From Deltaproteobacteria bacterium (GTDB lineage Bacteria > Myxococcota_A > Polyangia > HGW-17): DNA of 64,000 nucleotides. A model generated the notes under the pieces. The model ran no database searches. It saw nothing but the letters and a program-made list of their open reading frames with translations, and had not been told where the DNA came from. The position numbers were made by a program, and so were the translations under genes. Below are positions 44,273 to 52,289 of this stretch, one piece after another. Where the stretch lies: assembly GCA_016937155.1 (NCBI GenBank), contig JAFGWM010000032.1, positions 171,422 to 235,421 on the forward strand. Reading direction: 5' to 3'. Positions within the stretch are counted from its first letter, which is position 1. Each line of letters starts with the position of its first letter.

Positions 44273-44662
44273 ATGTCACTTTATACTAAAAATAAAGTCA
44301 AGAAGGTTAGATACGAACAGGATAGAAAAGACAATCCACGTGCTATCCTGAGAAACCTCAGAGTCGCACCCAGAAAAATGCGTATTCTTGCTGACATGAT
44401 CAGAGGTAAAAGTATTGAAGAAGCAATGGCTCTTTTGACTTTTACTCCTAAATCCGGTGCAAAAATTCTCCAGAAACTGGTGATGAGTGCTGTGTATAAT
44501 GCTGAAAACCAGGGTATGGATGACTCAGAAAGCCTGAAAATTGAAAGAATTTTCGTTGATGACGGTCCTATCATGAAATGGAGAAGACCAAGATCAAGAG
44601 GTAGAGCATTCAGAATTAACAAAAGAACAAGTCACATAACTGTTATAGTTGGTGAATTTTAA
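44273..44662 (+). CDS. rplV: Ribosomal protein L22
   Basis: The 129-aa L22 lines the exit tunnel. It has [20 protein letters not shown], the beta-hairpin region [18 protein letters not shown] and HITVIVGE at the end. An N-terminal basic extension of about 20 residues precedes the usual core. GAGGAG precedes the ATG. Confidence 0.97.
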
Positions 44663-46274: not shown

Positions 46275-46643
46275 ATGATCCAGATGCAAACAGTATTGGA
46301 CGTCGCTGATAACAGTGGAGCAAAAAAAGTTTCCTGTATTAAAGTGCTTGGCGGTTCTAAAAGAATGTACGCTTCCATTGGCGATATTATAGTTGTTGCT
46401 GTAAAAGAAGCCATTCCCACCGCAAAAGTTAAAAAAGGCGATGTACTCAAGGCTGTAATCGTTAGAACAGCTAAAGAGATTTCCAGAAAAGACGGTAGTT
46501 ACATTAAGTTTGATAACAATGCTGCAGTACTTTTGAATGCTGCAATGGAGCCAATTGGTACTCGTATCTTTGGACCGGTTGCAAGAGAACTTAGAGCCAA
46601 AAAATTCATGAAAATCATTTCACTGGCCCCGGAGGTGCTCTAA
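46275..46643 (+). CDS. rplN: Ribosomal protein L14
   Basis: L14, 122 aa, at the subunit interface. It has [19 protein letters not shown] and the [18 protein letters not shown] segment typical of the family. Its TAA shares a base with the ATG of rplX (TAATG). Confidence 0.98.
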
Positions 46644-47017
46644 TGTTAGCAAGAATTAGAAAGGGTGATCTCGTGAAAGTAATTACCGGTAAGTACAAAG
46701 GAAAAACCGGTAGAGTTCTTAAAGTGCTCACAAAAGCAGAAAAAGTTATTGTTGAAGGTATCAATATTGTTGTAAAAAACAATAAACCAACTGGTGATAG
46801 CCAGAAGGGTACCCAGACAAAGACTGAAGCACCTATTCATATTTCTAATGTACAGCCTGTTGATCCTGCTACTGCATCACATGCCGGTGGCAAGGATGAA
46901 AAGAAATTAGTAAAGGGCACCAGAGTTGGTACCAAGGTACTACCTGATGGCCGCAAGGTAAGAATAGCACGTGGTACAAAGAACAGTGGCGACGTCATTG
47001 AGAACGATAAAGCCTAG
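46643..47017 (+). CDS. rplX: Ribosomal protein L24
   Basis: L24, 124 aa, an early assembly protein with a KOW motif: [20 protein letters not shown], then [13 protein letters not shown] and [14 protein letters not shown]. The C-terminal tail is somewhat longer than in E. coli. Translation is coupled to rplN by a one-base overlap, with GGAGG upstream. Confidence 0.97.
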
Positions 47018-47036: not shown

Positions 47037-47666
47037 ATGGCCAAATCTAAAGGTCAAAAAGGCGATGCCGGTAAAGGCAAAAAAGCAAAAGAAAAGTTTC
47101 AGAATGAACCGATAAAAAGAGACAATCCGCCCAGACTGCAGGTTAAATTCAATGAAACAATTTCAAAGAAATTGCAGGAAGAATTCGGTTACAAGAATGT
47201 AATGGAAATTCCAAGATTGAAAAAGATTGTTCTCAACGTTGGACTCGGAGATGCAATTCAGAATCCAAAATTAATTGAAAGTGCATTTGAAGAGATCAAA
47301 ATCATCACCGGTAGAAAACCGGTTATTACAAAAGCAAAGAAATCTGTAGCTAACTTCAAACTGAGAGAAGGTATGAAGATTGGCGTTATGGTTACACTTC
47401 GTCGTGAAGCCATGTACGAATTTCTTGACAGGCTTGTTGCACTTGCGCTTCCCAGAACCAGAGACTTTAAAGGAATTAGCGCAAAAGGCTTCGACGGCAG
47501 AGGAAATTATACTCTTGGCATCAGAGAGCAGATAATTTTCCCTGAAATTAATTATGATAACATTGAAAAAATAAGTGGCCTTAATATTACAGTTGTTACG
47601 ACTGCCAAAACTGATGATGAGGCCAGGGCATTGTTGAGACACTTTGGCGTGCCCTTCAGGAAGTAA
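47037..47666 (+). CDS. rplE: Ribosomal protein L5 with basic N-terminal extension
   Basis: L5 binds 5S rRNA in the central protuberance. The core from about residue 40 onward is standard ([58 protein letters not shown]). Total length is 209 aa against about 180, owing to an extra Lys/Gly-rich N-terminus ([19 protein letters not shown]). GAGGATGAGCT lies before the ATG, so the extension is likely translated. Confidence 0.96.
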
Positions 47667-49754: not shown

Positions 49755-49952
49755 ATGGCTACCTATATTAAAATAACACAGGTTCGTAGCACCATTGCTA
49801 GGCCTGAGAAATTTCAAAAAATACTCGAAGGACTGGGACTCAGAAAAACCGGTAAAACCAGTATTTTGAAGGATACACCTGAGATTAGGGGAATGATTAG
49901 AAAAGTTTCCCATCTCGTTGAAATTGAACCATATGAGAAGGAAGGGGAGTAG
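49755..49952 (+). CDS. rpmD: Ribosomal protein L30
   Basis: L30, 65 aa. It has [30 protein letters not shown] and [19 protein letters not shown] precedes the ATG, and rplO starts 3 bases after its stop. Confidence 0.96.
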
Positions 49953-49955
49953 GCT

Positions 49956-50888
49956 ATGAGCATACTGTCCAGTTTAAAACCAAATAAAGGATCCGTTAAA
50001 AACAATAAAAGACTCGGTCGCGGTCGCGGAAGTGGACGTGGAAGTAGTGCCGGTAAAGGTCTTAAAGGCCAGAAGCAGAGAACTGGTGGCAAAATCAGAC
50101 CTGGTTTTGAAGGTGGTCAGATGCCACTTCATAGAAGAATTCCAAAGAGAGGATTTAATAATCACTTTATGAAAGACTTCTGTGTGGTATCGCTTGAAGA
50201 CCTCTTGAGGGTTCTTCCTGATGGCGGCGAAGTAAATCTTTCAAGCATGGTAGCTGTAGGGCTGGCATCTGAAAGAGATACCCTGCTTAAAATCATCGGA
50301 AATTCTGAGATTAAAGGAAAATATAATATTACTGCTGATAAAGTGACAGAAACCGCCTGGAAACTTATTGAAGAAAAGGGTGGCAATATCACTATTAATC
50401 AGAATGTAAATGAGTATGCCACTGTTACTCTTGGTATGATTTCAAGAAAATTCCCCAAAAAGACAGATGGCCCTGTTAATGTGGATTTTGAAGCAATGAA
50501 ATCTGCTGGACTTATTCCAGAGGGAAAAAGTAAAGTAAGTGTTATCGCTGTAGGTCAACTTGCAGGTAAATATAATATCAGTGCAAATAAAATATCTAGG
50601 GAAGCAACAAAAATTCTTCAGAATAAAGGTTGTAAGGCTATTGTAAGTGACCCTGTGAATTTTTACCGAAAAGTTGATTTTTATGATCTTGAAAAATGGT
50701 ATCCACGGGGTGGACAGGTTACCATAGAAGATCTCCGTACCAGAGGGATTCTCAAAGTTGGTCAGAAAATGAAACTCGCTGGAGATGGCAGAGTAAAAGC
50801 TCCCTATCAGGTCGAGACTCACAAAGTATCCGCAATCGCTCGCAAAAAGCTTGAAGCATTTGGTGGAAAAATCCAGTTATTAGACTAG
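49956..50888 (+). CDS. rplO: Ribosomal protein L15 with triplicated C-terminal domain
   Basis: L15 is a late-assembly 50S protein, normally about 145 aa. The first 65 residues are the usual basic Gly-rich arm (RLGRGRGSGRGSSAGKGLKG, QMPLHRRIPKRGF). After it come three tandem copies of the globular domain: residues about 66-147, 151-232 and 233-310. Matching positions read GKYNITADKVT, GKYNISANKIS and APYQVETHKVS. Each copy has the beta-element after a DLL/MISR/DLE helix, a VNLSSM, VDFEAMKSAGL or TIEDLRTRGI segment, and a closing helix. The frame is uninterrupted and followed by secY, so this is a real 310-aa product unless it is processed. The extra two domains are unexplained. Confidence 0.93.
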   Translation: MSILSSLKPNKGSVKNNKRLGRGRGSGRGSSAGKGLKGQKQRTGGKIRPGFEGGQMPLHRRIPKRGFNNHFMKDFCVVSLEDLLRVLPDGGEVNLSSMVAVGLASERDTLLKIIGNSEIKGKYNITADKVTETAWKLIEEKGGNITINQNVNEYATVTLGMISRKFPKKTDGPVNVDFEAMKSAGLIPEGKSKVSVIAVGQLAGKYNISANKISREATKILQNKGCKAIVSDPVNFYRKVDFYDLEKWYPRGGQVTIEDLRTRGILKVGQKMKLAGDGRVKAPYQVETHKVSAIARKKLEAFGGKIQLLD

Positions 50889-50960: not shown

Positions 50961-52289
50961 ATGGCAAGCGGATTCGGAAATATTCCAAAAATACCAGAAT
51001 TAAGAAAAAGATTACTACTTACTTTACTTCTCCTTGCAATATACCGTATCGGTGTATTTGTAACAGTGCCGGGAGTTGACAGAAACGTAATGAAGCAGAT
51101 CATGTCTGGTGCCAGTGGCACATTCCTTGGTTTGTTCAATATGTTTTCGGGTGGTGCTCTTAAACAGTTATCTATTTTTGCACTGGGAATAATGCCTTAC
51201 ATCAGTGCCTCCATCATTATACAGTTGCTCACTGTGGTAGTTCCACATCTTGAGCAACTTAATAAAGAAGGTGAAGCTGGAAGAAGGAAAATCAACCAGT
51301 ACACCAGATATGGCACAGTACTGCTTTGTATCATTCAGGGTTATTTCATGGCAACCTGGTTTGAGAGTCAAAACAGGATGTATCCTGGGCTGGTTTTAGG
51401 AGCAGGCTTGGGTTTCCGCTTGATGACAGTACTTACTCTGACCTCTGGTACAATATTTATTATGTGGCTCGGTGAGCAGATTACCGAAAGAGGAATTGGT
51501 AATGGTATATCACTGATAATATTTGCAGGTATCGTAGCAAACATGCCTGATGCAATTATCAAGCTTTATCGTCAGTTCCATCGTGGCGATATGGGAATTC
51601 TAAATCTTGCGATAATTGTATTTATTGTTGTTGCCGCAATTGCAGTAATTACATTTTTCGAACGGGCATACAGAAAAATTCCGGTTCAGTATGCAAAAAG
51701 AGTTGTTGGGCGGAGAATGTATGGTGGTGCCTCATCCCATCTTCCTCTGAAAGTGAATATGGCCGGGGTTATCCCACCGATTTTTGCATCCTCCTTACTG
51801 ATGTTCCCGGCACAGATTGCCAGTTTTACGGATTCCGATACGATCAGAAGGTTTATACAGCCCCTTTCAAATCCAGCTGACTGGAGATACAATCTTGTAT
51901 ATGTAACACTAATCATATTCTTTGCATTTTTCTATACTGCAGTGACATTCAATCCAAAAGATGTTGCTGACAATATGAAAAAGCAGGGTGGTTTTATTCC
52001 TGGAATAAGACCTGGACAGAGAACCGCAGAATACATTGACAGAGTTTTAACAAGAATTACTTGGGGTGGTTCGATCTATGTTTCACTGGTTTGCGTTTTA
52101 CCGAACCTTATGCAGGCAAGGTTTAATGTTCCTTTCTACTTCGGTGGCACTTCACTTCTGATTGTTGTTGGTGTGGCACTGGATACAGTACAGCAGATTG
52201 AGGGACATCTCATCACCAGGCACTATGAAGGCCTTGGTGGCGGTGGTGGAAAAGGTGGTCCTAGAATTCGTGGTCGCAGACCAGCATAA
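50961..52289 (+). CDS. secY: Preprotein translocase subunit SecY
   Basis: The channel subunit of the Sec translocon, 442 aa with ten hydrophobic helices. It has [10 protein letters not shown] in the plug region, [18 protein letters not shown] and [17 protein letters not shown], and [20 protein letters not shown] in the cytosolic loops. AAAAGGA lies before the ATG. The Gly-rich C-terminus ([15 protein letters not shown]) is typical. Confidence 0.98.

Follow-up and report, generated by a model that had tools for sequence, protein, structure and literature searches.

The rplO frame of the 64,000-nucleotide stretch analyzed here (the window), which belongs to a lineage of uncultured Myxococcota, encodes about twice the usual length of uL15. 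Core ribosomal proteins are held almost frozen in architecture, and the locus raises the question of whether this gene is a genuine uL15 and, if so, what its additional sequence does on the ribosome. The features of the locus are listed below.

49755..49952, + strand: rpmD (uL30), upstream neighbor, ordinary (lengths compared across the order)
49956..50888, + strand: rplO (uL15), the genome's sole copy, 310 aa versus the usual length of about 145 to 165
49956..50171, + strand: single basic N-terminal arm, residues 1 to 72, pI 12.0 (from alignment; TIGR01071 match starts at residue 4)
50172..50402, + strand: L15 C-terminal domain copy 1, residues 73 to 149, PF00828 43.8 bits, acidic (pI 4.8)
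50403..50651, + strand: L15 C-terminal domain copy 2, residues 150 to 232, PF00828 33.3 bits, basic (pI 9.7)
50652..50885, + strand: L15 C-terminal domain copy 3, residues 233 to 310, PF00828 50.6 bits, basic (pI 9.9)
50961..52289, + strand: secY, downstream neighbor, ordinary

The 310 codons ran without interruption, predicting a product of 33.9 kDa, with a Shine-Dalgarno-like sequence (AAGGAAGGGGAG, 49938-49949) 5' of the gene and a normal spc operon order around it (L30, L15, SecY, Adk, and Map). A sequence-only reading had proposed 310 residues where about 145 is usual, arranged as one arm followed by three repeats of a domain in one frame; both points were borne out. The whole protein matched PF00828 in three stretches (4.4e-32), and all three copies, scored after being cut apart, exceeded the curated cutoff of 21.5 bits, copies 2 and 3 thus being recognized by the L15/L18e profile alone. 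The arm carried the canonical GFEGGQMPL.RR.PKRGF motif, and the score against the bacterial L15 equivalog TIGR01071 (NCBIfam rplO_bact) was 196.8 bits (1.4e-58; curated cutoff, 77.95 bits), with the best stretch at residues 4 to 145. Local alignment scores between copies (98, 81, and 62) were not reached in any of 2,000 shuffles (maxima, 58, 51, and 47). A search for a second L15 gene across the whole draft genome (85 contigs) found none, so this locus is the only one from which uL15 can be supplied to the ribosome. The window gene is a genuine and sole uL15 whose C-terminal domain is present in three tandem in-frame copies.

An assembly error, which the same reading had named as one of two findings that would undo its proposal, or a pseudogene has a negligible probability. 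The draft state of the genome leaves some room for such an artifact, but eight further genomes, each assembled separately, had the tripled frame, which makes an assembly error untenable. The copies shared 26 to 30% identity in protein and only 60 to 63% in DNA, which excludes a collapse or chimera.

Structures were predicted with AlphaFold2 from the window protein and eight homologues. Three successive domains with an identical order of strands and helices (E-H-E-H-E-E-H-E) were obtained, running from E75-79 to E144-147 in copy 1 and from E154-158 to E228-230 in copy 2, with pLDDT mostly between 80 and 91. The predicted fold of each copy is that of L15, and the top Foldseek matches were bacterial uL15 proteins. 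Copies 2 and 3 modeled alone had a mean pLDDT of 89.6, and 9qt5_L was matched with an rmsd of 1.2 over 74 columns, a superposition that covers one of these two copies, as Foldseek gives one alignment per target. The arm had low confidence, as expected away from the ribosome. The pTM was low (0.43 and 0.56), and the placement of domains relative to one another in the models is not informative.

The linkers between domains were short in the model (about 6 residues). Short linkers weigh against a polyprotein that is processed to release an ordinary uL15 together with one or two separate L15-like (eL18-like) products, and no cleavage motif was evident short of a systematic search. The occurrence of eL18 as a separate protein of the same fold in archaea and eukaryotes (PMC11354259) would fit such processing, but it is very improbable here.

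The distribution of multidomain L15 was examined at several taxonomic depths. Among 13 genomes of the order, three-domain L15 was found in all eight genomes of the window family, spanning four genera, and in G009, the only genome of a sister family, with lengths of 309 to 315 aa wherever the gene was complete (the frame of G003 ends at a contig end). The remaining four genomes, from two other families, had single-domain L15. In the class, 315 genomes with completeness of at least 60% were searched; L15 was present in 272, and three L15 matches were found in 9 of these, all belonging to the window family or being G009. Two class genomes had two L15 matches each, on separate contigs. Tandem L15 candidates in G371, G415, and G572 were rejected, as the paired matches sit on separate contigs. 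Across 379 evenly drawn genomes of the phylum (331 with L15), two L15 domains in one frame were found only in G041 and G046, besides window-family genomes. These two represent two genera of one family in another class of Myxococcota, and their L15 is about 224 aa long, with a basic and very divergent second domain (PF00828, 26 to 42 bits; G041:C391 and G046:C28:33500-38500). A scan of 84,980 species (one genome per species) with one motif, from the alignment of copies 2 and 3, gave eight matches, labeled Myxococcota, Deltaproteobacteria, or Polyangiaceae and corresponding to G001 to G007 and G009; with a single motif, cases in other lineages may have been missed. No chain with more than one L15 domain was found among the best 60 distinct PDB sequences matching the domain profile. 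The sequence-only reading knew of no described tripled L15; likewise, no description of a multidomain L15 was found in the literature searched, with most subscription journals lying outside the search.

In a species tree built from neighboring operon proteins, the nine tripled genomes formed one clade (support, 100/100), which indicates a single origin of the tripled L15. A tree of 69 single domains (78 columns) placed every tripled copy within one clade (99/96). Copies 2 and 3 were united (95/94), and both families were brought together within copy 2 (99/83) and likewise within copy 3 (94/90), with copy 1 of G009 branching first. This grouping indicates orthology of the copies between the families and a source of all three in the L15 of the lineage itself. 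The simplest reading of these trees is two successive in-frame tandem duplications of the lineage's own domain, both predating the split of the two families, in agreement with the earlier suggestion that the event is not recent. A second domain would have arisen first and then given rise to copies 2 and 3. Stepwise copying in this order is probable, with moderate evidence for the order because the domain is short. The two-domain L15 of G041 and G046, which occurs in another class amid single-copy relatives, is probably a separate event; common ancestry with the tripled form was not rejected by the domain tree (p-AU, 0.16 to 0.25).

All three copies are under purifying selection. Among the close relatives G004, G006, and G007, dN/dS was about 0.02 to 0.13 per copy and 0 to 0.04 in the arm, and dN was far below dS in each copy (G004-G007 dN/dS values of 0.036/0.477, 0.031/0.284, and 0.017/0.328 for copies 1, 2, and 3), supporting the proposal that the copies have been retained by selection. 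Between families, identity was 45 to 56% for copy 3, 35 to 45% for copy 1, and 32 to 45% for copy 2. These values bear on a neutral elaboration, in which the copies are tolerated in solvent and kept by the demands of folding and solubility, with no use in translation. The copies do evolve faster than the arm, and the second lineage with two copies indicates that such events are tolerable elsewhere. However, exactly three copies were kept in 9 of 9 genomes, dN/dS was low in every copy, and the better conservation of copy 3 than of copy 1 between families is unexpected for a free appendage. We consider such a neutral elaboration unlikely.

In each of the eight genomes measured, copies 2 and 3 were basic (pI, 9.2 to 11.0), whereas copy 1 had a pI of 4.8 to 8.7 and was acidic (4.8 to 5.6) in four. 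Against a profile of the ordinary L15 domain, copy 1 scored 43 to 62 bits in the window family, 88 bits in G009, and 94 to 100 bits in the single-copy relatives of the order. In the window species, copy 3 kept 15 of 23 conserved L15 positions and copy 1 kept 12. The weakening of copy 1 suggests that its contacts were partly taken over by the other copies or were relaxed. The residue equivalent to position 120 of E. coli L15, mostly Leu in ordinary L15, was aromatic (mostly Tyr) in almost all tripled copies; the trait was common to all three copies and to all tripled genomes.

We infer that the intact 310-aa chain is most likely incorporated into the 50S subunit. Because related species have retained each of the three copies, two protein domains beyond the usual set are probably present on these ribosomes. 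The arm passes into copy 1 as it does into the single domain of ordinary uL15, an arrangement that directs copy 1 to the canonical site, where the arm and this copy most likely remain. Copies 2 and 3, which are basic, conserved, and held on short linkers, would then most likely adjoin the uL15 site at the outer surface of the 50S and would engage rRNA or protein in contacts specific to this lineage. The sequence-only reading had likewise suggested that two additional domains might lie near the central protuberance, or that the protein might serve a second purpose. The L15 fold would be used three times per ribosome in this lineage versus once in other bacteria. A tandem-domain uL15 of this kind, with copy 1 in the canonical site and lineage-specific contacts made by copies 2 and 3 on the adjoining surface, is the reading that we consider reasonably likely.

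Some uncertainty attaches to the seating of copy 1, as this copy has drifted in the window family and conservation is highest in copy 3. The main structural rival is a swap, in which copy 3 (or copy 2) occupies the canonical uL15 pocket and copy 1 is a spacer or a new surface domain. The drift and frequent acidity of copy 1, together with the basic charge of copy 3 and its larger share of conserved positions, fit such an exchange; the continuity of the arm with copy 1 does not, and copy 1 of the sister family (G009) is clearly the most L15-like of its three (88 bits versus 46 and 57). A swap is distinctly improbable. A further alternative assigns the extra domains to a job outside the ribosome core, such as binding to another RNA (for example, the protein's own mRNA) or to another protein (for example, the translocon or a factor in assembly or hibernation). 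Basic domains with an RNA-binding fold would suit such a job, but the gene neighborhood was ordinary and neither a linked gene nor a specific partner emerged, and we consider this quite improbable.

Other components near the uL15 site were searched for in the order. The interface of uL15 with its partner bL35 has been tabulated (PMC4881015), and bL35 was present in 12 of 13 order genomes. Replacement of a lost bL35 by the extra copies was therefore rejected: with bL35 present, the additional L15 domains do not compensate for its loss. An Rfam model of 23S rRNA matched 0 of 13 order genomes, and in the control 4 of 14 genomes went unmatched as well. BLAST with the E. coli 23S rRNA recovered the final 320 to 405 bases only, in three order genomes, a region that leaves the L15 site uncovered.

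Several other ribosomal proteins encoded in the window also differed in length. uL24 (46643-47017) was 122 to 124 aa long in the tripled-L15 lineages versus 105 to 107 aa in the single-L15 sister families of the same order, and uL22 (44273-44662) was 129 to 131 aa long, with an N-terminal extension, versus about 110 aa in the single-L15 sister families. Throughout the order, uL5 (47037-47666) carried about 30 lysine-rich residues as an N-terminal tail, to which the frame of one family (f2; G008 and G011) adds very roughly 60 to 110 residues with PKAEA/PKGG-like repeats.

The window protein resembles ordinary bacterial uL15 (TIGR01071/PF00828) in its arm, first domain, place in the operon, and status as the sole gene, and differs from it in having two domains beyond the single C-terminal one. 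The two-domain L15 of G041 and G046 shares a tandem L15 domain placed after an ordinary uL15, but it has two domains and a very divergent second copy. Repeated domains are also known from the ribosomal protein bS1. They likewise occur in eS4 and eS1 (PMC11354259). All three share internal domain repetition with the window protein but are different proteins of the small subunit and are far older. A parallel in fold is eL18 (archaeal L18e), which is placed under the CATH fold of domain 2 of ribosomal protein L15 (PMC11354259) and puts the uL15 C-terminal fold to use a second time on the large subunit. Archaea and eukaryotes use the L15 fold twice, as uL15 and eL18, but there eL18 is a separate protein, and the domain tree joins the window copies in a single clade that falls within bacterial L15 domains. 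An origin of the copies from L18e was rejected on the basis of this tree and of the score against the L18e model (30 bits, below the cutoff of 85).

uL15 is expressly counted among the ribosomal proteins that gain no extensions (PMC11354259). A bolder version of the favored reading, which we hold tentatively and with some doubt, is a remodeled 50S whose rRNA carries a three-bead protein patch made by one tandem-repeat uL15; with two copies, another class of the phylum would have come to such an expansion anew. If true, it would mean that a universal core ribosomal protein has been expanded by domain repetition. In archaea and eukaryotes the uL15 fold is used again in eL18, and the tripled L15 offers a counterpart to this in bacteria. 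It also has a practical consequence: ribosomal-protein trees built from concatenated sequences include uL15 among their markers, and the wrong copy may be aligned. A universal ribosomal protein whose domain was tripled once, with the copies conserved since, constitutes a natural experiment on new ribosomal protein surface, and it bears on whether such surface is functional or neutral.
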